NCBI GenBank assembly: GCA_028869595.1
Contig: JAGWRU010000091.1
Span: 1 to 37,477, forward strand
Direction of reading: 5' to 3'
From: Rhodospirillales bacterium
GTDB lineage: Bacteria > Pseudomonadota > Alphaproteobacteria > Acetobacterales > Acetobacteraceae
Length of the DNA stretch: 37,477 nucleotides
The position numbers and the translations under genes were made by a program. The notes beneath the pieces are model-generated. The model worked only from the letters and a program-made list of their open reading frames with translations. It was not told the DNA's origin and did not search any database. Shown one piece after another: positions 1-23,105 of this stretch. Position 1 is the first letter of the stretch; each line of letters begins with the position of its first letter.

Positions 1-519
1 GGAGTAGCAGTTGGAGCCACCCGACGACCCCCAGCCGCCCTGGTTGGAGTCGGACCCGCCCCAGGAGTTGCCGCTCGACCCGCCATAGCAGTTCGAGCCG
101 GAACCGTAGCTCGACCCGCCGGAGTAGCAATTGGACCCGCCCGACGACCCCCAGCCGCCCTGGTTGGAGTCGGACCCGCCCCAGGAGCTGCCGCTCGACC
201 CGCCATAGCAGTTCGAGCCGGAACCGCCCCACGACCCGCCGGAGTAGCAATTGGAGCCGGAACCGTAGCTCGACCCGCCGGAGTAGCAATTGGACCCGCC
301 CGACGCCCCCCAGCCGCCCTGGTTGGAATCAGACCCGCCCCAGGAGTTGCCGCTCGACCCGCCATAGCAGTTGGAGCCGGAACCGCCCCACGACCCGCCG
401 GAGTAGCAATTGGACCCGCCCGACGACCCCCAGCCGCCCTGGTTGGAGTCGGACCCGCCCCAGGAGTTGCCGCTCGACCCGCCATAGCAGTTGGAACCGG
501 AACCGCCCCACGATCCGCC
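1..519 (-). repeat. 120-bp tandem coding repeats (40-aa Gly/Ser/Cys units)
   Basis: Four near-identical 120-bp copies lie at 1-120, 121-240, 280-399 and 400-519, in frame with the surface protein. A 39-bp partial unit at 241-279 interrupts the array. Each unit encodes 40 residues rich in Gly, Ser and Asn, with two SNCY motifs and one NQGGW motif. Copies differ at a handful of bases. The array probably continues off the left edge. Confidence 0.95.
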
Positions 520-2451
520 GCCGCAATTGGAGCCGGAGCCCGAGGAGCCGCTGCTCGGCACCGTCACCACGCCGCTGCCGGACACCGTGGTGGTCACGGT
601 GTACTGCCAGGTCTCCCCGGCGCTCAGGATGCCGTCATGGTTGGTATCGCCGACATTATAGCCGTTCTTCAGAACGGCGGTCGGGGTCACGTCGATCGGC
701 TTGCTCGCGGTGCCGATATTATCGACCAGCGACAGCTTGGTGATCGCCGTGGTGCCGGTATTGGTAACGTCGATCGTGTAGGTCTCGGTCCCGTTGGCGT
801 TGATCACCAGCGAGCCGGGCATCTTGTCGACGACGAGCTGCGGCGCTACCGGCGGCGGCGGGGCGGGCGGCACCAGCCCGGCATCGACCGTGGTGAGATT
901 CTCGCCGGAGGTCAGGGTGATCTGCGTGGTCAGCCCGGTGGTCGGGTTGGCGAGGCTGGCCGAAGAGCCGCCCTCGGGGGAGAAGGTGTAGCCGCTCGGC
1001 TCCACGAACTGCACCTCGTAGGTGCCGGGGGCGAGGTTGGCGAAGGTGTAATGCCCGTTGGCATCGGTCGTGGTGGTGGCCAGCACCGTGGTGCCGGCGG
1101 CGTTCAGCAGCTTCACCGTCACGCCCGCCACGCCGGTGGTGGTCAGCGCGCCGGTATCGGCCTTGTCCAGGAACACGGTGTTGCCGATCGAGGCCGGCTG
1201 ATACAGGCCGCAATCGGCATTGGTGATGTTCTGCCCGCCGGTCAGCGCCAGCGGATTGGTGATACCGGTGGTCGGGTTCGGCGCATCCAGCACCGTGACC
1301 GAGGTATTGGCCGGGGCGATCACGTAGCCGGCCGGCGGCACGAACTGCACCTCGTACGTGCCGGGCGGCAGATGGGTGAATTCGTACTGGCCCTGGGCGT
1401 TGGTCGTCGTGGTGGCCAGCACCGTGGTGCCGGTCGCATTCAGCAATTCCACGGTCACGCCGGCCACGCCGATGCCGGTGGGCACGCCGCTATCGGTGCT
1501 GTCCAGATAGACGGTGTTGCCGATCGTGCCGGTCGGCACCAGCCCGGCATCGACCGAGACGATATGCTGGCCGGCCGTCACCGTGATCGGCGCGGTGATG
1601 CCGGTGGTGGGGTTGGCGCTGCTGGAAAGATCGGGGTTGGAACTCGCGTTTTCGGGCGAGAACGCATAGCCGGTCGGCGAGACGAACTGCACCTCGTACG
1701 TGCCGGGCAGCAGATTGGCGAAATTGTAATCGCCATTGGCATCCGTGGTGGTGGTGGCCAGCACGGTGGAGCCGTTGGCGCTGAGCAGATTGACCGTCAC
1801 GCCCGCCACGCCCGGGCCGGCATTGACGCCGGTCTGGATGCCGGTGCCGGCCGTGTCCATGAACACGTTGTCGCCGATCGAGGCGGTCTGGGTCAGCGGC
1901 GTCGGCTTGAAGCCGAAATCGATGATCGAGAAATCATCCAGCGAGCCGGCCGGCGCATTCGCCGCGACGCTGGCGGTGACGGTCACATCGACATGCAGAT
2001 TCTGATAGGCGGCGAACATCGGCAGATCGCCCGGCTGGCTACCCGGCGTGCCGGTCGTGTCGCCGAGATTGAGGTTCTCCTCCCCCACCAGATTGCCGGA
2101 CGTGTCATAGACCTTCTCCACCACATTGATGGAGATGCCGGAGCCGGCCTGCGCATCGGGCTGGAAGGCGGCGAACATCTGGCCCAGCCCTTGGGTCGGG
2201 TCGGTGCTCGCCACGTCGAAGCTGAAATTCAGCGTGGTCGAGGAACCGGGCGCATAGGCGCCGGCCTGAAACCCCTGCCATTCCAGCCCCTGATAGGCGC
2301 TGACGCCCACGATCGGCACGTTCTGCGCCGCAAAGGCCATCGGCGAGGCGGTGAAGGATCCCACCGTCCCCACATCCGTCTCGGTGACCGAGATGTTCGA
2401 GAAACTGGCAATGCCGAACGTCGTGTTGGCGAATGTCAGGGTCGAAGACAT
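1..2451 (-). CDS. SdrD_B-like multidomain surface protein, C-terminus beyond window edge
   Basis: Open frame from ATG at 2451 to the left edge with no stop (at least 817 aa, so partial). A GGAG ribosome site lies about 9 nt upstream. Residues 1-185 form a beta-rich N-terminal region without an obvious signal peptide. Three SdrD_B/prealbumin-like modules follow, each opening with SIGD or SIGN then VFxD/VYLD and closing with PGTYEVQF (starting near residues 188, 308 and 419). A DUF11-like module (about 535-635, with the NGYNVGDTNHDG motif) comes next, then a low-complexity Gly/Ser/Asn/Trp/Tyr/Cys region built from 40-residue repeats. Such proteins are extracellular stalks or adhesins (family knowledge). 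The missing signal peptide suggests type I secretion or a C-terminal sorting signal outside the window (inference). It lies 104 bp downstream of a PEP-CTERM gene on the same strand. Confidence 0.85.
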   Translation of the reverse strand, partial: MSSTLTFANTTFGIASFSNISVTETDVGTVGSFTASPMAFAAQNVPIVGVSAYQGLEWQGFQAGAYAPGSSTTLNFSFDVASTDPTQGLGQMFAAFQPDAQAGSGISINVVEKVYDTSGNLVGEENLNLGDTTGTPGSQPGDLPMFAAYQNLHVDVTVTASVAANAPAGSLDDFSIIDFGFKPTPLTQTASIGDNVFMDTAGTGIQTGVNAGPGVAGVTVNLLSANGSTVLATTTTDANGDYNFANLLPGTYEVQFVSPTGYAFSPENASSNPDLSSSANPTTGITAPITVTAGQHIVSVDAGLVPTGTIGNTVYLDSTDSGVPTGIGVAGVTVELLNATGTTVLATTTTNAQGQYEFTHLPPGTYEVQFVPPAGYVIAPANTSVTVLDAPNPTTGITNPLALTGGQNITNADCGLYQPASIGNTVFLDKADTGALTTTGVAGVTVKLLNAAGTTVLATTTTDANGHYTFANLAPGTYEVQFVEPSGYTFSPEGGSSASLANPTTGLTTQITLTSGENLTTVDAGLVPPAPPPPVAPQLVVDKMPGSLVINANGTETYTIDVTNTGTTAITKLSLVDNIGTASKPIDVTPTAVLKNGYNVGDTNHDGILSAGETWQYTVTTTVSGSGVVTVPSSGSSGSGSNCGGGSWGGSGSNCYGGSSGNSWGGSDSNQGGWGSSGGSNCYSGGSWGGSGSNCYGGSSGNSWGGSDSNQGGWGASGGSNCYSGGSSYGSGSNCYSGGSWGGSGSNCYGGSSGSSWGGSDSNQGGWGSSGGSNCYSGGSSYGSGSNCYGGSSGNSWGGSDSNQGGWGSSGGSNCYS

Positions 2452-2555: not shown

Positions 2556-3248
2556 TCAGCCGAAAGCGGCGACTCGTCGGCGCATGGAACGCAGCGCGTC
2601 CCGCAGCGCGGTGGAACGGAACCCGGCCAGCGACAGCAGGCCGAGGAAGAAAAGACCGATGCTGGCCGGTTCCGGCACCATCGACAGGGTCTGCGTCACC
2701 GAGGTGACGGACGCGCTGTTGCCGGTGCCGATGGCGAAGGTGGTGATGTCCTTCGACAGATAGACCAGCGACTGGGCGGCGAAAGCGATGGTCTGCGAGG
2801 TCGTGCCGCCGACCTTCACGTTCAGCGCGCCGAGCGACGTCGAGCCGTCGCTGGCATAGACCGTCTCGCCGGTGGAGGCCGAGGAGGACGCGCCGACGCT
2901 GGAACCGGCGATGCCGAGCGACACGCCGTTGATGCCCGAACCCGACGCCGAGAATTCGACGCTGAGGTCATGGCTGGTGCCGGGATCGGAAACGATCGAG
3001 GAGGAGGTGCCGGAGATGGTGATGCCGGGCGCCGAGCCGCCGGAGGACACGAATGTCGCCTGCGATCCGCAAGCCGTGCCGCCGAAGGAGCAGGCGGTGA
3101 CAGTGAAGGTCACGCCGTCGGAGACCAGCGACTGGCCAATCTGCAGCGGCGTCGCCTGGGCCGCGCCGGCCAATGCCAGCGACAAAGCCGCAGCACCCAG
3201 CCCCGCCACGCCGTAGCCCCGCATCCGCGACCGGATCATCCCCTGCAT
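2556..3248 (-). CDS. PEP-CTERM sorting-domain protein
   Basis: 230-aa exported protein. The N-terminus has basic residues and a hydrophobic signal peptide ending near AQA (residues 1-32). The mature part is Ser/Thr/Gly-rich and beta-strand-like, with two Cys near residues 53 and 60. The C-terminus has the tripartite PEP-CTERM signal: VPEP, a hydrophobic helix (IGLFFLGLLSLAGF), then an Arg-rich tail. Proteins with this tail are recognised in the inner membrane by exosortase and linked to exopolysaccharide-related surface export (established for the family). No exosortase gene is in the window. The start is uncertain: ATGs at codons 1, 4 and 9 are all possible and none has a strong ribosome site. 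It is followed on the same strand by the SdrD_B-like gene, so both may be surface components (inference). Confidence 0.88.
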   Translation of the reverse strand: MQGMIRSRMRGYGVAGLGAAALSLALAGAAQATPLQIGQSLVSDGVTFTVTACSFGGTACGSQATFVSSGGSAPGITISGTSSSIVSDPGTSHDLSVEFSASGSGINGVSLGIAGSSVGASSSASTGETVYASDGSTSLGALNVKVGGTTSQTIAFAAQSLVYLSKDITTFAIGTGNSASVTSVTQTLSMVPEPASIGLFFLGLLSLAGFRSTALRDALRSMRRRVAAFG

Positions 3249-8512: not shown

Positions 8513-10198
8513 GTGCCCGCCAGCCATTCGACCTTCGCGCGTTTCGGTTTCACCTGCGAAAAACAGCCGGCGCTCGGCGCCAAGGGGATGGTGGTGAGCA
8601 ATCACCCGCTCGCCTCCGCCGCCGGGGCGCAGATGCTGCTGGCCGGCGGCAATGCCATCGACGCCGCCATCGCCACGCTGTTCGCCCTGACGGTGGTGGA
8701 GCCGATGATGGTCGGCGTGCTGGGCGGCGGATTGTCGCATATCCGCACCACCGATGGGCAGCATCATGTGATCGACGCGCTCAGCACCGCGCCGGGCGCC
8801 GCGCGGGCGGATATGTACCGCACCATCGCCGATACCCTGCCCGATTACCAGGAAACCGAGGGGCGGCAGAATCATCGCGGCGCACTTGCGGTGGCGGTGC
8901 CGGGCGCGCTGGCCGGCTGGTGTTCGGCGCTGGCGCGTTTCGGCACGATGCCCTTGGCCGAGGTGCTGGGCCCGGCCATTCAACTCGCCGAACACGGTTT
9001 CACCGTGACGCCCTATCTGCAAACCTGCGTGCGCGACGTGGCGGCCGATCTGGCGCGCGATCCCGCCCTTGCCGCGCTTTTCCTGCCCGAGGGCGCGCCG
9101 ATCGCGGCCGGGACGCGGCTGCGTCAGCCGGAAGCCGCCGCCTCGCTGCGGCTGATCGCCGCGACGGGGCCGGGTGCGCTTTATGGCGGGGCGATCGGGG
9201 CGGCGCTGGCCGATTGCATGACCCGCTCCGGCGGGCTGATCGGGCAGGCCGATCTCGCGGCCTATGCGTGCAAGGACCGCGCGCCGATCCACACGCAGTA
9301 CCGCGGCTTCGAGATTATCGGTCCGCCGCCGCCCGCATCCTCCGGCGTGCATATCGCGCAGATGCTGGGCATGCTGGAAGGGTATGATCTGCGCGCCATG
9401 GGCTTCGGCACCCCCGATACGGTGCATCTGCTGGCCGAGGTGCTGAAAGCCGCCTTCGCCGATCGCCGCGTCGCCACCGCCGATCCCGATTTCGTGGCGG
9501 TGCCGGTCGCGACGCTGACCTCGCGCGATTTCGCCGAACGCCGCCGGGCGGAGATCGACATGGCGCGCGCGCGCGACTGGGCCCCCGGCATCGCCCCCGC
9601 CGGTTTGGGCGAAAGCGCCAATACGACGCATGTCACGGTCGCCGATGCAGCGGGCAATGTCGTGGCCAGCACGCATACCATCAACAGCCTGTTCGGCGCG
9701 CGCGTGGCGGTGCCGGGCACCGGGCTGATCTGCAACAACTACATGTTCAATTTCGACCCTCATCCCGGCCAGGCGCTGTCGATCGCGCCGGGCAAGCGGG
9801 TCTTCACCTCCATGGCGCCGATGATGGCGCTGCGCGACGGGCGCATGGCCTTCGCACTCGGCCTACCCGGGGCGCTGCGTATTTTCCCCTCGGCGCTACA
9901 GGCGCTGATCAACCTGATCGATCATGGCATGACCCCGCAGGAAGCGGTGGAGGCACCGCGCATCTTCACCCAAGGCGATGTGCTGGAGATCGAGGCGGCG
10001 CTCTACACGCGCATCGGCGCCGATCTGGCGGCGCGCGGCCATCGTGTCGTCAGCAGCCCGCGCGTCGCCGGCGGCATGAACGCGATCGCCTTTCAGCCGG
10101 ACGGCATGATGCTGGGCGCGGCGTGCTGGCGGGCGGACGGCACGCCGGTGGCGATCGGCGGCGGGCTGGCGCGGGAAGGGGTGCGGTTCGTGATTTAA
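8513..10198 (+). CDS. gamma-glutamyltransferase family protein
   Basis: 561 aa from GTG at 8513, selected because AGGAG ends 7 nt before it; the longer frame has no family similarity. Gamma-glutamyltransferases are Ntn hydrolases that autocleave before a Thr and transfer or hydrolyse gamma-glutamyl groups such as that of glutathione. The N-terminal part has GMVVSNHPLASAAG and GGNAIDAAIA. The cleavage region reads NTTHVTVADAAGN with the nucleophile Thr near residue 371. The small-subunit segment has TSMAPMMALRDGR and GLPGALRIFPS. No signal peptide is visible, unlike periplasmic E. coli Ggt, so it may be cytoplasmic. The small-subunit residues differ enough from canonical Ggt that an acylase-like specificity is possible. 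Its stop codon overlaps the stop of the convergent MFS gene by 4 bp. Confidence 0.9.
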   Translation: MPASHSTFARFGFTCEKQPALGAKGMVVSNHPLASAAGAQMLLAGGNAIDAAIATLFALTVVEPMMVGVLGGGLSHIRTTDGQHHVIDALSTAPGAARADMYRTIADTLPDYQETEGRQNHRGALAVAVPGALAGWCSALARFGTMPLAEVLGPAIQLAEHGFTVTPYLQTCVRDVAADLARDPALAALFLPEGAPIAAGTRLRQPEAAASLRLIAATGPGALYGGAIGAALADCMTRSGGLIGQADLAAYACKDRAPIHTQYRGFEIIGPPPPASSGVHIAQMLGMLEGYDLRAMGFGTPDTVHLLAEVLKAAFADRRVATADPDFVAVPVATLTSRDFAERRRAEIDMARARDWAPGIAPAGLGESANTTHVTVADAAGNVVASTHTINSLFGARVAVPGTGLICNNYMFNFDPHPGQALSIAPGKRVFTSMAPMMALRDGRMAFALGLPGALRIFPSALQALINLIDHGMTPQEAVEAPRIFTQGDVLEIEAALYTRIGADLAARGHRVVSSPRVAGGMNAIAFQPDGMMLGAACWRADGTPVAIGGGLAREGVRFVI

Positions 10199-11409: not shown

Positions 11410-11670
11410 GGCCCGGTCCCCTGGAAGCCTCTGCTGCGACGCCGCGCCGTATGGCGCATCCTCGGGCCGGCATCGGGCCGGACCCTCTTGATGACCGTTC
11501 CAGGATGCGACCGGATGGGGACGGCGTCAAATCATCCGCGCCCTTCAAAATGAATTACGTCGTGACCGCGCGCAGCAATCAGGGATACTCTTCGGAGGGG
11601 ACACTGGGGGGGGGGATGGCTCGCGATCCACTTTCCGCGACCCAAGACAATGGGAACGAAGGAGCACTGG
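11410..11670. other. 261-bp intergenic region, left boundary of AT-rich island
   Basis: Lies between the divergent MFS and DUF262 genes. Composition changes from GC-rich (11410-11540) to mixed. It contains the 10-G tract at 11606-11615 and must hold the DUF262 promoter. No tRNA, integrase remnant or inverted repeat of an insertion sequence was seen. Confidence 0.6.
11606..11615 (+). repeat. 10-base G homopolymer
   Basis: An uninterrupted run of ten G lies 55 nt upstream of the DUF262 start codon and outside any gene. Tracts of this length are prone to slippage in bacteria. Confidence 0.9.
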
Positions 11671-12753
11671 ATGGCTCTAACCAGCGCGGCCGACCTGACG
11701 CTGCAACTTAGCGATCAGCGTCGATTGGTCGATTTTGATACGTCTGATATTCAGCTTCAGCAGCTAATCACTATGCTAGATGAAGGTCAGATATTGGTCG
11801 CGCCCGCTTACCAGCGTCAGTTTCGATGGGGAGATGCCCGCTGTTCCGAGCTGATCGAGTCCCTGCTGCTGGGGATCCCAGTCCCAAATCTGTTCATGGC
11901 GACCAATCCTGACGATAACACTTGGGAAGTCGTCGATGGTCTGCAGCGCTTATGTACTGTTGCCAAGTTTATGGCGAACGACGAGCTCCTGCATCGACTT
12001 AATATACAAGGCCGTTTGACCTTAACAGGTCTTAAGAAGCTTACCGAGTTCAATATGTACTCCTTTAATAAACTTCCTTCAAATATTCAGCAGCACATAC
12101 GAACGCGCTCCTTGCGAGTGGTTACCCTTAATGACAAGAGCAGTCCCGTGGTTCGGATTGATCTGTTTGAGCGCCTAAATACAGGGGGTATCATCCTGAC
12201 CCCGCAAGAAATTCGCTCAGCGGTCTTCCATGGAACATTCGCCGAAAAATTGGACGAATTGAGAGATACTCAAGATTTTAGAACGGTTGTAAGGCTAACT
12301 GAGAAGCAGAGAATAGACGGAACAGCAGAAGAGTGTGTTTTGCGGTTCTTTGCATTTCTAGAGAAATATAAATTATTTGAACATAGCGTGGGTGATTTTC
12401 TCAACAAATATATGCAAGAATCCAATATATACTTCGAATACGAGCGCCTTGAGCCAGAATTTCGTAATGTATTTTCACAGCTGGTCCACGCATTTCCGGA
12501 AGGAATACAGCGCCCTCATCGAAAGGGGACTACCCCACTTAATCTCTATGAGGGGGTTGTTGTAGGAGCTGCGCTCGCGATTAGGGAGAGGGGAAGCCTA
12601 GTTATCGACAATCTATCCGCTTGGATGAACACAGATACGCTTCGCTCCTACACTACGGGCGCTACGAACGACCGACGAAGAGTCGAGGGTAGAATTGAGT
12701 ATTGTCGCGACCGGTTCTTAGGCAGGCCGAATGTTCAAGCCCTTAAGGAATGA
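11671..12753 (+). CDS. DUF262 (GmrS/ParB-like) protein, putative defence NTPase
   Basis: 360 aa. The start at 11671 follows AAGGAG by 6 nt. All DUF262 signatures are present: YQRQFRW (48-54), DGLQR (89-93, canonical DGQQR) and FERLNTGG (166-173). DUF262 is a ParB/sulfiredoxin-fold domain that binds and hydrolyses nucleotides in the type IV restriction enzyme GmrSD and in SspE and BrxU. In those proteins a DUF1524 HNH nuclease is fused or adjacent. Here no DUF1524 HNH motif is visible in this protein or its neighbours; a HEPN protein follows instead, overlapping by 23 bp. Codon use is much AT-richer than in flanking genes, indicating recent transfer. Likely a sensor/NTPase of a defence or toxin module (inference). 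Confidence 0.92.
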   Translation: MALTSAADLTLQLSDQRRLVDFDTSDIQLQQLITMLDEGQILVAPAYQRQFRWGDARCSELIESLLLGIPVPNLFMATNPDDNTWEVVDGLQRLCTVAKFMANDELLHRLNIQGRLTLTGLKKLTEFNMYSFNKLPSNIQQHIRTRSLRVVTLNDKSSPVVRIDLFERLNTGGIILTPQEIRSAVFHGTFAEKLDELRDTQDFRTVVRLTEKQRIDGTAEECVLRFFAFLEKYKLFEHSVGDFLNKYMQESNIYFEYERLEPEFRNVFSQLVHAFPEGIQRPHRKGTTPLNLYEGVVVGAALAIRERGSLVIDNLSAWMNTDTLRSYTTGATNDRRRVEGRIEYCRDRFLGRPNVQALKE

Positions 12754-19617: not shown

Positions 19618-19800
19618 GAATATCCCTGCGGGGCAGCCATTCATATGCGCCTTGCTGCGGCGCGGCGCCCATAAAGCATCCCGTTCCGGGCGCGGCAAGG
19701 CGCGTTTGCCGGCGCGGCGTAACCTGTCAGCGCGTTGCCGCGACGCCACCGGGGAGGGGGGGCGCGGCGATCCCGTCGGGCCGGATCGCTAGGATCGCTA

Positions 19801-21291
19801 TCAGGCGGCGCGCCGCGCGCCGGCCCCGGCCAGCACCAGCAGCAGCCCGGCGCAGAGCCAGGCGGGACGGTCGGCCAGCCCGCCATGCACGGCGATGGCA
19901 CAGGCGCTTGCGCCCAGCCCTGCGGCCAGCACCGCGCGGATCGCGCGCGGCCCGGCCGGCACCGTGCCGGCCAGCGCCGCCAGCCCGGCGAGCGCCAGCA
20001 GCGGGGTGGGCAGATCGCGATAGCGCGGCCACAGCGCGACTGGCACCGAGACGGCCAGCGCCAGGACCAGGAACGCCAGCGCCAGCCAGGCATGCAGGCG
20101 TCGCGCTTGCGCCCGGCCCAGCGTGATGGCGAGCCCCGCCTGCCCGGCCAGGGCGAGGGCGGCAAGCGCCAGCCGCGCCGGGGTGAAAGCGAGGGCGGCG
20201 AGCGCCTGATCGGCCGCCACCAGCAGCCCGCCCGCCGCGCAGGCCAGCAGAACGCGGCGCCCATGGCTGCGATCCCCGGCAGGACGATCCCAGAATGCCG
20301 CCAGCAAGGCTGCCAGCGCCAGCGCGAGTGCTGCGTGCAGCGGCCAGTCCGGATCGCGGGCCACGGGGCCGGTGCGGCTGAATTTGGCGTGCCGATCCGC
20401 GCTCCACAGGCCCCAGGCGGTGCCGACACTGCCCTCGGTCGCGACTTTCCAGTGCTGATCGAAGGCTTCGATGATGTTGTAATCCCAGTGCGCGGCGGCG
20501 GCGCGATCCAGGAAGGCGCGCAGAAACCGCGTCTGCGCGACCCGCCCGGGGGCGGCGGCGCCGCGCCAATGGCCGCGACTGGGCCAGCCGGTTTCGCCCA
20601 GCACGATCGGCTTGCCGGGAAATTCCTGGGCCATGCGCGCCAGCACCCGGGCGATATGGGCGACGGCGCGGTCCGCCGGCACGGGATGGTTCTCCCAATA
20701 GGGCAGGACATGCACCATCATCTGATCGACATGCGCGGCGAGCGCGGGGTTCTTCGCCCAGAATTCCCAGACATCGGCATAGGCGACGGGCTGGCGCACG
20801 GCGGCGCGCACGCGATCGAGCATGGCGGCCAGCGCCGGTTCGGTAAGATCGCCGCGCAACAGCACCTCGTTCCCGACGATCACGCGGGTGATGGTGTGGG
20901 GATGGGCACGGGCGAGCGCGATGCCGGCGGCGATTTCGCGCGCATTGGCCGCCGCATCGGCCGACAGCCAGATGCCCTGCCAGACATGCAGCCCGGCGGC
21001 GCGCGCCAGCGCCGGCAGATCGTAGGCGCCGCCGATGGCGCCATAGGTGCGGATGGCGCGGGTTTTGCCGGCGAGCAGAGCGAGATCGGCGGCGACCTGC
21101 GCCCGGCTGGGCCAGCGCGCCGGGGCGAGGGGGGATTGGCCGGGGCGGAAGGGCGCGTAGGACAGGCTTTCGATCGGCGCGGTGCTGCGCATGGGCGGGA
21201 CGAACACCGCGTGGCCGCGCGCCCAGAAGGCGAGCAGCAAAAGAACGGCGCCTGCCAGCCAGCCCGCCGTGGATCGCACCCTGCCTGCCAT
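19801..21291 (-). CDS. membrane-anchored GH17-like beta-1,3-glucan hydrolase/transferase
   Basis: 496 aa. The N-terminus is a signal anchor (WLAGAVLLLLAFWARG). A catalytic domain of about 280 residues follows and resembles bacterial glycoside hydrolase family 17 (COG5309-like): RTYGAIGGAYDLPALA opens the barrel, VGNEVLLR carries the acid/base Glu and VLGETGWPS carries the nucleophile Glu. The C-terminal third (about 330-496) is a run of seven or so hydrophobic helices. GH17 enzymes cleave or remodel beta-1,3-glucans, so trimming or branching of an exported glucan at the membrane is plausible (inference). The start at 21291 was chosen because the longer frame only adds sequence antisense to the CoA-binding gene. 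It lies 183 bp upstream of glyQ on the same strand. Confidence 0.8.
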   Translation of the reverse strand: MAGRVRSTAGWLAGAVLLLLAFWARGHAVFVPPMRSTAPIESLSYAPFRPGQSPLAPARWPSRAQVAADLALLAGKTRAIRTYGAIGGAYDLPALARAAGLHVWQGIWLSADAAANAREIAAGIALARAHPHTITRVIVGNEVLLRGDLTEPALAAMLDRVRAAVRQPVAYADVWEFWAKNPALAAHVDQMMVHVLPYWENHPVPADRAVAHIARVLARMAQEFPGKPIVLGETGWPSRGHWRGAAAPGRVAQTRFLRAFLDRAAAAHWDYNIIEAFDQHWKVATEGSVGTAWGLWSADRHAKFSRTGPVARDPDWPLHAALALALAALLAAFWDRPAGDRSHGRRVLLACAAGGLLVAADQALAALAFTPARLALAALALAGQAGLAITLGRAQARRLHAWLALAFLVLALAVSVPVALWPRYRDLPTPLLALAGLAALAGTVPAGPRAIRAVLAAGLGASACAIAVHGGLADRPAWLCAGLLLVLAGAGARRAA

Positions 21292-21370
21292 CCCCCTGCG
21301 ATAGCCCGGCCCAGTGAGGCGATCCAGCCTGTGTCTGGTCAGCCTCGGTCGGGCGGCGCAGAATATCGCC

Positions 21371-21799
21371 ATGAGCATCGACGGGCTGAGCGACGCGGCG
21401 ATCCGCGACATCCTGACCACCACGCGGCGCATCGCCATGGTCGGCGCCTCCGCCAAGCCGGAGCGGCCATCCTATGGCGTGCTGCAATTCCTGCTGGAGC
21501 ATGGCTACGACGTGACGCCGGTAAACCCCGGCCTGGCCGGCGGCACCATTCTGGGCCGGCCCGTGGTTGCCCATCTGGCCGATGCCGCGCCGGTGGAGAT
21601 GGTGGATATCTTCCGCGCCGCCGATCAGGTCGGCCCGGTGGTGGAGGAGGCGATTGCCGCCGGCGCGCGCATCGTCTGGATGCAGCTGGGCGTGATCAAC
21701 CAGGCCGCCGCCGCCGCCGCCCGCGCGGCCGGGCTGGTCGTGGTGATGGATCGCTGCCCGGCGATCGAAAGCGCGCGGCTGGGGCTTGCCGAACATTAA
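21371..21799 (+). CDS. CoA-binding (YccU-like) protein
   Basis: 142 aa, a single Rossmann-fold CoA_binding domain. It has the nucleotide-binding start RRIAMVGASAKPERPSYGV, followed by GYDVTPVNP, the VDIFRAADQVGPVVEEAI strand-helix unit, IVWMQLGV and VMDRCPAIE near the C-terminus. These are hallmarks of the small succinyl-CoA-synthetase-related family that includes E. coli YccU. Its members bind CoA in vitro but have no agreed cellular role. The start at 21371 fits family N-termini. It is divergent from the GH17 gene (79 bp between starts) and 87 bp before the DUF2076 gene. Confidence 0.88.
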   Translation: MSIDGLSDAAIRDILTTTRRIAMVGASAKPERPSYGVLQFLLEHGYDVTPVNPGLAGGTILGRPVVAHLADAAPVEMVDIFRAADQVGPVVEEAIAAGARIVWMQLGVINQAAAAAARAAGLVVVMDRCPAIESARLGLAEH

Positions 21800-21886
21800 C
21801 CGCGCGGCGGGCGCGATTGCGATTGAAGTCCCGCCCGGTCTGCGCCACATCGCCCACAGGGGATCGGCCCCGATCGAGGTGCGCCC

Positions 21887-22858
21887 ATGACCAACGAAGA
21901 ACGCGACATCATCGCTGCTTTCATCGCCCGCGTGTCCGGCGCGGCACCGGCGACGCCGCCGGGCATGGCCGCCGGCTCGGTGCCCGCCACCGCCGCCGCG
22001 CCGATGCCGCCGGTGGACCCGGAAGCCGATGCGCTGATCGCCCAGCTTTTCGCCCGCTATCCGGAGGCGCGCTATCGCCTGACCCAGCTGGCCTTCGTGC
22101 AGGAGCACGCGCTGGCGGAAGCGCAGAACCGCATCCAGCATCTGGAATGGCAGCTCCAGCAGGCCGCCCAGCAGCAGCAGGCAGCGGCGCAGCAGGCCCA
22201 GCCGCAGCAGGGCGGCGGCTTCTTCTCCGGCCTGTTCGGCGGCGGGCGGGCGGCACCGCAGCCCGGCCCCGGTCCGGTCTGGAACCAGGGCGGTGCGCCG
22301 CAACCGGGCTATGGCCAACCGGGATATGCCCAGCCTGGCTATGCCCAGCCCGGCTACGCACCGCCGCCGCAGCAGCAATACGCGCCCGGCTATCAGCCGG
22401 GCATGTTCCAGCGCGGCGGTTCGGGCTTTCTCGGCTCCGCCCTGACCACGGCGGCCGGGGTGGCCGGCGGCATGGTGGCCGGCAATCTGCTGATGGACAT
22501 GTTCTCCCCCGGACGCGGCATGGGCGGCGGGATGATGGGCGGCGGCTTCGGCGGCATGCCGATGGGCGGCGGCAATCCCGGGGGGGGTAATCCCTGGGGC
22601 GGCGATGCCGGTGCCGGCCAGGGCGCCATCGATCAGGGCGCCTGGACGACGCCGAGCGATCCTGCCGGTGGCGGCGGTACCGGCTGGGGCAGCGATCCCG
22701 GCCAGGCCGGGGCCGATCCCGGCTGGGGAGCCGATCCGGGTAGCGCCGATCCGGGCGGGGCGGACCAGAGCGGCGGGGATTGGGGCAGCGATCCCTCCGG
22801 TGGCGGCGACAGCGGCGGCGATTGGGGCGGCGGCTCGGACGACGACACCACGATCTGA
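21887..22858 (+). CDS. DUF2076 family protein
   Basis: 323 aa. The N-terminus MTNEERDIIAAFIARV and the block LIAQLFARYPEARYRLTQLAFVQE with a following Gln-rich coiled-coil helix (ALAEAQNRIQHLEWQLQQA) are typical of DUF2076. The middle is a Pro/Gly/Tyr/Gln region with PGYAQ repeats, then a hydrophobic Gly-rich segment (LGSALTTAAGVAGGMVAGNLLMDM) that could sit in a membrane. The tail is Gly/Asp/Ser/Trp-rich. DUF2076 proteins are described as periplasmic ligand-binding-sensor-like, but no function is established. GAGG lies 8 nt before the ATG. An 8-G tract (22580-22587) lies in the Gly-rich part and could cause slippage. Confidence 0.88.
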   Translation: MTNEERDIIAAFIARVSGAAPATPPGMAAGSVPATAAAPMPPVDPEADALIAQLFARYPEARYRLTQLAFVQEHALAEAQNRIQHLEWQLQQAAQQQQAAAQQAQPQQGGGFFSGLFGGGRAAPQPGPGPVWNQGGAPQPGYGQPGYAQPGYAQPGYAPPPQQQYAPGYQPGMFQRGGSGFLGSALTTAAGVAGGMVAGNLLMDMFSPGRGMGGGMMGGGFGGMPMGGGNPGGGNPWGGDAGAGQGAIDQGAWTTPSDPAGGGGTGWGSDPGQAGADPGWGADPGSADPGGADQSGGDWGSDPSGGGDSGGDWGGGSDDDTTI

Positions 22859-22876
22859 ACGAAACCCGTCGCGCCA

Positions 22877-22910
22877 GTCAGCGAGGTTCCATCGTCAGCG
22901 AGGTTCCATG
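22877..22910 (+). repeat. 17-bp tandem duplication covering ribosome site and start codon
   Basis: GTCAGCGAGGTTCCATC at 22877-22893 is repeated at 22894-22910 with only the last base changed to G. The unit carries a GAGG ribosome site. The first copy ends in ATC, the second in ATG, which is the start of the 65-aa gene. Confidence 0.9.
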
Positions 22911-23105
22911 CATCCCCCATCGGAGGCGCCCCTGCGCGCCGAGTTGCAGGCGGCGATTGCCAAGGTCCGCCATCAGATCGACGTGCAGCAGAACGCCGAT
23001 CACTATATCGGCTCCGGCCCCATCGCCCAGCGCGCGGTGCGCGAGCTGGAAGTGGAGCTTGCCCAGTTGGAGGCGGCGCTGGCCGGGCTGGGCAAACCGG
23101 GCTGA
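22908..23105 (+). CDS. 65-aa small coiled protein
   Basis: 65 aa from ATG at 22908, with GAGG 5 nt upstream inside a duplicated 17-bp unit. The sequence is predicted to be almost entirely helical: a first helix (LRAELQAAIAKVRHQIDVQQ), a short NADHYIGSGPIAQ turn and a second helix (AVRELEVELAQLEAALAGLG). Heptad-like Leu/Val spacing suggests a two-helix hairpin or coiled coil. I do not recognise a named family. It lies 49 bp after the DUF2076 gene on the same strand, so the two may be co-expressed. Coding potential is supported by codon bias and by the start-site context. Confidence 0.65.
   Translation: MHPPSEAPLRAELQAAIAKVRHQIDVQQNADHYIGSGPIAQRAVRELEVELAQLEAALAGLGKPG

Follow-up and report, generated by a model that had tools for sequence, protein, structure and literature searches.

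Gene content of the locus

The window (the whole stretch of DNA that we analyzed, 37,477 nucleotides) starts at base 1 of contig C41, inside a repeat array; the draft genome consists of 256 contigs. At the left end, an open frame on the minus strand runs from an ATG at 2451 off the window edge and encodes 817 amino acids. A second gene on the same strand lies directly upstream. When the part encoded on another contig of this draft genome is included, the domain order of the large protein is an N-terminal beta domain, three SdrD_B modules, the start of an Ig-like domain, the repeat array, the last strands of the same Ig-like domain, and DUF7467.

The three SdrD_B stalk modules occupy 862..1884 on the minus strand (about 1540-1884, 1195-1539 and 862-1194). 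SdrD_B-like modules had been proposed in the original prediction, and their presence is clear: PF17210 matches three stretches with 255.1 bits against a gathering score of 29.7 (E 8e-77), the modules also appear as a 336-bp DNA repeat in Tandem Repeats Finder, and the fold of the stalk matches that of SdrD (Z 15.2, rmsd 2.3, 114 residues) and also that of UafA. The first strands of an Ig-like domain of the DUF11/DUF7507/CARDB type follow at 556..843 (minus strand), as assigned by Pfam and orthologue fold comparison; the array is an internal loop of this domain. The Pfam matches of the segment in the window are both below the curated cut-off (DUF11, E 1e-4; DUF7507, 0.0076), and in the L064 orthologue DUF7507 is above it (31.4 vs 27).

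The N-terminal beta domain (1885..2451, minus strand, about 190 aa) is conserved in orthologues and well folded in the AlphaFold model. It belongs to no Pfam family, and the fold search returned one weak match, Bd1399 (Z 8.8, 5% identity), from which no known ligand-binding fold can be assigned. By eye it resembles the product of the upstream gene, and we do not claim common ancestry of the two (hhalign probability 3.7, P 0.011). A signal peptide was not found: an in-frame stop lies three codons 5' of the ATG, and the first 40 residues are weakly hydrophobic, with no positive n-region. Likewise, the first 40 residues of 12 orthologues contain no signal-like hydrophobic stretch after a positive charge. 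Among the window protein and these 12, the most hydrophobic N-terminal stretch (2.0) is that of L036, with no positive charge before it.

The repeat array and its continuation on a second contig

Tandem Repeats Finder reports periods of 120, 159 and 279 at window positions 1-520, with scores up to 935, and the minus-strand translation bears out the 120-bp repeats coding for 40-aa units with two SNCY motifs that had been described from the letters of the sequence. The array had also been placed at 1-519; a repeat array is indeed present there, and its edge lies slightly further to the right, at 555, so the in-window part of this Gly/Ser/Asn-rich array (1..555, minus strand) makes up the final 185 residues of the frame. 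This is the 5' part, and the rest is found in contig C25 (L007:3-356). By composition, the translated array is 37% Gly, 33% Ser, 9% Asn, 6.5% Tyr, 5.5% Cys and 5% Trp.

The true units are two types of module, each ending in SNCY: one of 27 aa, GGSSGNSWGGSDSNQGGWGSSGGSNCY, and one of 13 aa, SGGSSYGSGSNCY or SGGSWGGSGSNCY. A pair of both gives the 40-aa (120-bp) unit with its two SNCY motifs, and the extra 39-bp piece is one 13-aa module. We count four 27-aa modules, four 13-aa modules and two 12-aa leader modules in the window, while contig C25 adds two 27-aa modules, two 13-aa modules and degenerate end modules; a few modules of 12-14 aa lie at the array ends. Over both contigs, a pair of 27-aa modules differs on average at 3.5 of 81 nucleotides (53 differences in 15 pairs), and a pair of 13-aa modules at 3.6 of 39 (54 differences in 15 pairs). 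A recent expansion of the array is plausible. Changes are synonymous in six of the eight variable codons of the six 27-aa modules (expected about 28%, p 0.007), which argues that the protein sequence is maintained as well; the corresponding figure for the 13-aa modules is three of five and is not significant.

Contig C25 begins inside the array in the matching frame and carries the further modules and the C-terminus. The ends of C41 and C25 share an exact overlap of 41 bases, and from these sequences the order C41-C25 is likely. A comparable overlap is absent at the other end of the window, so the 41 bases alone are no proof of adjacency within a repeat. Each contig is broken within the repeat, which makes the copy number of the array a lower bound. 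After the modules, C25 encodes a short Ser/Thr linker, a segment VADTVTATGTTATGATVTASDSSDIVVL, and a C-terminal domain that ends in GGHLVS before the stop. This C-terminal domain is DUF7467 (PF24269, 52.4 bits vs a cut-off of 27). A search of PDB sequences with the DUF7467 alignment gave no match, and Foldseek with a model of the Ig-like domain plus DUF7467 gave broad beta-sandwich matches only. The original prediction had suggested a search of the C-terminus, beyond the left edge, for a secretion or sorting signal. In the C-terminus encoded on C25 (...GSLKVAGYVGTAGGHLVS) neither an LPXTG nor a PEP-CTERM motif is seen by eye, and there is no NCBIfam match.

A predicted loop within an Ig-like domain

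In the original prediction, the array was a tail of the protein. The C-terminal part in contig C25 rules this out: the array sits within an Ig-like domain, and the final strands of that domain, followed by DUF7467, come after it. In orthologues with both halves, strands of the GETWxYTxTV type precede the insert and strands of the TVTATDTKEVQVL type follow it, and both are conserved. The insert itself cannot be aligned among orthologues, most of which have a different insert at this position.

We modeled the fold of L075 (on the L032 contig), which has the shortest insert among orthologues with both halves. The AlphaFold model (overall pLDDT 67) contains strands at 79-87, 152-163 and 168-180, and the insert, residues 90-154, has pLDDT under 50, with values of 23-31 reported. 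Single Ig/CARDB folds cover residues 1-182 of this model across the gap (3idu_B: Z 9.7, rmsd 2.4, 95 of 110 residues), and so the strands that flank the insert would belong to one domain. The model, made for an orthologue while the window protein has its halves on two contigs, supports the view that the array is a loop inserted in one Ig-like domain. Residues 625-816 of the window protein, which cover the array, have pLDDT values of 23-28 and no secondary structure in the AlphaFold model, and the array is therefore predicted to be intrinsically disordered.

Relatives and distribution

Among 397 genomes from the same bacterial family, 20 encode an orthologue with DUF7467, and the source genome is one of these 20. 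The source genome is the sole match in a class-wide sample of 385 genomes, and a phylum-wide sample of 398 genomes contains one other genome with DUF7467. The orthologue set used below comprises the 20 genomes plus L064, L074 and L076; 13 other loci that we found repeat contigs already included. Named records with family members are metagenome-assembled genomes (MAGs) of Acetobacteraceae, Rhodospirillales or 'Proteobacteria'. Two members, L075 and L078, come from MAGs recorded as Nitrosovibrio sp. Nv4 and as Asaia bogorensis, names that may be misassigned. Searches of viral contigs, phages and plasmids found no relatives, and we set aside a mobile or viral origin.

Where they are long enough, the orthologues mostly show the N-terminal domain, a stalk of SdrD_B and/or DUF11-like repeats, the Ig-like domain, the insert, the remaining Ig strands and DUF7467. 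L046 departs from this order, with no such Ig-like domain via the anchor that we used. In L036 (7192-11262, minus strand), DUF7467 is followed by two CBM60 carbohydrate-binding modules, and L074 (7759-9672) looks by eye like the same arrangement. A distant DUF7467 protein from elsewhere in the phylum (L083, genome G991) has an apparent N-terminal Sec signal and a Lys-rich end; DUF7467 is thus not tied to proteins that lack a signal.

Cysteines in the inserts

The window protein contains 16 Cys in about 291 residues of array and two in the 857 residues outside it (p 2e-8). We extended this comparison to 22 rows, i.e. the orthologue set minus the window's own protein; the boundaries of two inserts were placed manually (the start in L045, both ends in L046), and where a locus lacked the Ig anchor, we counted from the beginning of the frame. 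The insert is enriched in Cys (p<0.05) in 16 of the 22 rows; the rows without significant enrichment are L041, L043, L044, L045, L046 and L047, several of which are truncated. Lack of conservation of the cysteines outside this copy would have counted against the original prediction. Most relatives do have them, and arrays whose units are unlike contain about one Cys per unit; exceptions are L043, whose insert has none, and L033, whose insert has few. In several of these arrays, each unit has about one G-x-N-C: GANCDT recurs every 54 aa in L037, GQNCDT every ~55 aa in L040 and GANCSP every 48 aa in L048, with SSNCAT in L044 and GSNCY in the window array as further contexts. As sister lineages, L037 and L040 are not independent of each other. 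Size variation between strains had been predicted in the note; between species of one genus the loop length does vary, for example from 606 aa in L037 to 551 aa in L040.

The array might be a neutral spacer driven by slippage, for which any hydrophilic low-complexity loop would suffice and in which Cys would simply have been copied along. Such a spacer would be in line with the G/S-rich repeated DNA, with an insert sequence that differs in most lineages, and with the Cys-free insert of L043; the recurrence of Cys about once per unit, in the same G-x-N-C context, in unlike arrays argues against it, as do the mainly synonymous variation of the modules and the rarity of Cys elsewhere in the protein. 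We consider this explanation unlikely. We give still less credence to a loop that sequesters or is loaded with metal, whose Cys would bind iron, copper or zinc or buffer redox in the matrix. The regular single Cys with adjacent Asn, Asp or Tyr in a flexible Gly-rich sequence would be compatible with this role, but the array in the window has no CxxC or His-Cys clusters, metals are not usually bound by single Cys at intervals of 13-27 residues, and some of the partner proteins described below suggest floc or matrix functions over metal functions.

In 11 of the 22 orthologues, a pattern count finds a different, Cys-rich module of about 190 aa at the insert site (e.g. L064:8249-8860 and 9491-10040). 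Its pattern is TAWL..F.PTSC.DGATY, CWVTTLPA, NPGNVFLSG and DYNQIGVK.CDN, and the two copies that we searched gave no Pfam match at E<=10.

A PEP-CTERM gene next to the stalk gene

The upstream gene (2556..3248, minus strand) encodes a protein of 230 aa with a signal peptide and a PEP-CTERM sorting motif. TIGR02595 matches it with 17.8 bits against a cut-off of 16, PF07589 is just below its cut-off (19.7 vs 20.7), and a hydrophobic stretch follows positive residues at the N-terminus. A PEP-CTERM gene with a signal peptide lies directly upstream of the stalk gene in 12 of the 13 loci with an intact start (the window, L032, L033, L034, L036, L037, L040, L042, L043, L046, L048, L064 and L076), L032 being the one without. 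L039, whose start is broken, also has no PEP-CTERM neighbor; the nine remaining loci are cut or broken and stand outside the count. Since the 12 genomes searched have just 11-55 PEP-CTERM matches each, such pairing is unlikely to arise by chance. The two genes are 62-123 bp apart in eight of ten measured loci and 643-664 bp apart in the other two; in the window the gap is 104 bp. It contains no terminator-like match, and one such match lies inside the partner gene.

Sigma-54 promoters have been reported for PEP-CTERM genes, and we found no convincing site of this kind before the gene pair in 10 loci. Most PEP-CTERM genes form single-gene operons, according to PMC1569441. Genes for PpiC/SurA-like peptidyl-prolyl isomerases lie just upstream of the gene or the pair in L032, L033 and L064; the one in L033 matches the SurA model below its cut-off, and those in L032 and L064 were recognized by eye.

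Exosortase was detected in the source genome and in 16 of the 20 DUF7467 genomes, compared with 120 of 377 others (p 2e-5, with related genomes counted separately; because the genomes compared are related, p-values of this kind are too optimistic). One of the four DUF7467 genomes without detected exosortase is G131, where a PEP-CTERM partner is present at the locus. At E<=1, the partner encoded in the window is not matched by the model of the floc protein PepA, NF033554 (cut-off 80 bits); of nine orthologous partners, five give weak matches of 15.8-31.7 bits, below the cut-off. In Aquincola, according to PMC9850573, floc formation is restored and the amount of bound exopolysaccharide rises when PepA is overexpressed.

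The alignment of partner proteins (A2) contains one invariant Cys, C47. This residue would fit an adhesin in the narrow sense, in which the N-terminal beta domain (or the CBM60/DUF7467 ends) would be a ligand-binding tip displayed by the stalk, and the loop would do no more than anchor the other end in the envelope, e.g. by a disulfide to the PEP-CTERM partner. The well-folded N-terminal domain, stalk modules typical of adhesins, and the two CBM60 modules of L036 would suit such a protein as well. The lack of an assignable ligand-binding fold in the N-terminal domain, for which Bd1399 is the sole and weak match, weighs against it, and we regard this adhesin as possible but rather improbable.

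Export route

Absence of an N-terminal signal, a feature of type I secretion substrates, is observed in the window protein and in the 12 orthologues. A gene for HlyD, above cut-off, with an adjacent HlyB-like gene is present on contig C8, unlinked to the stalk gene. From the missing signal peptide and these HlyD/HlyB-like genes elsewhere in the genome we infer that the stalk protein is secreted, probably by a type I system. Every one of the 35 genomes searched has transporter matches, and co-occurrence with type I systems therefore does not discriminate. RTX repeats are usual in type I substrates, though not universal, and RTX nonapeptide repeats are absent among the Pfam matches of both protein halves. 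DUF7467 is not a known secretion signal. We rejected an ABC transporter gene near L045 as a type I component; its best match is the lipid exporter model MsbA, below cut-off.

Proposed function

We favor, with a little more confidence than doubt, a secreted stalk protein of the extracellular matrix or cell surface whose disordered, thiol-bearing loop cross-links chains, and which is produced together with a PEP-CTERM partner. The large stalk protein would be exported and become part of the extracellular matrix or of the cell surface. The SdrD_B modules would form a rigid stalk, DUF7467 would close the protein, and the Ig-like domain would carry the array as a loop just ahead of its final two strands, in which thiols follow one another at intervals of 13-27 residues. 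Outside the cell, this loop could serve as a flexible linker that gives reach, and its regularly spaced Cys (and Tyr/Trp) could join neighboring chains, the thiols being oxidized, most likely to intermolecular disulfides. Chains cross-linked in this way may hold flocs or a biofilm matrix together. The PEP-CTERM partner would be sorted to the envelope by exosortase, may bind the stalk protein or exopolysaccharide, as PepA does elsewhere, and might thereby help hold the polymer to the cell.

If this is true, repeated thiols that cross-link a bacterial matrix would be a testable route to tough flocs, with natural variants (Cys-rich, Cys-poor and Cys-free loops) available in one scaffold, and PEP-CTERM proteins, few of which have known molecular partners, would gain a candidate partner encoded next door. 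A broader reading, which we put forward tentatively and consider doubtful, is that one Ig-like domain near the C-terminus has served in evolution as an insertion site, where lineages have built differing, very long loops (about 80-690 aa) that are disordered or rich in Cys and have converged on one thiol per repeat. Together with the co-encoded PEP-CTERM protein, this would make up a matrix system of Acetobacteraceae not described before, in which two proteins take part and thiols form the cross-links.

Comparison with known systems

Tandem SdrD_B modules with the same fold (Z 15.2) are shared with the staphylococcal Sdr MSCRAMMs (SdrC/SdrD). Unlike those, the window protein has no signal peptide, LPXTG, SD repeats or recognized A region, and its low-complexity part sits inside an Ig-like domain and contains Cys; it scores 142 with the NCBIfam SdrD model, against a cut-off of 2500. 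The window protein is not an Sdr MSCRAMM: the signal peptide and the LPXTG motif were looked for and not found. By analogy, it may work like a fibrillar matrix adhesin. Large Gram-negative fibrillar adhesins and matrix proteins exported by type I secretion are exemplified by LapA-like proteins. With these it shares a long Ig-like stalk, the absence of a signal peptide and the presence of HlyB/HlyD-type genes in the genome, whereas it differs from them in that no RTX repeats were matched, the export genes are not adjacent, and the loop is rich in Cys.

The PEP-CTERM/exosortase floc system (PepA, Zoogloea, Aquincola; PMC9850573, PMC1569441) resembles the present locus in having a partner with a signal peptide and a PEP-CTERM motif and an exosortase in the genome. 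Compared with the PepA system, the PEP-CTERM protein of the window differs in being paired with a giant stalk protein. DUF7467 members of the Acetobacteraceae type are C-terminal in stalk proteins. Among the papers covered by our literature search, DUF7467 is not mentioned, SdrD B-like and Acetobacteraceae do not occur in one paper, and, under the terms used, Cys-bearing repeats in large type I adhesins did not come up. Two papers list PEP-CTERM alongside Acetobacteraceae.

Two other features of the window lie on the plus strand. A long open frame with short tandem repeats (15-, 18- and 42-bp units) spans 19735-23105, where the plus-strand frames tested gave no Pfam match. At 11650-12753, near an MFS transporter gene, there is a gene for a GmrSD_N (DUF262-type) protein, possibly a restriction or defence gene.
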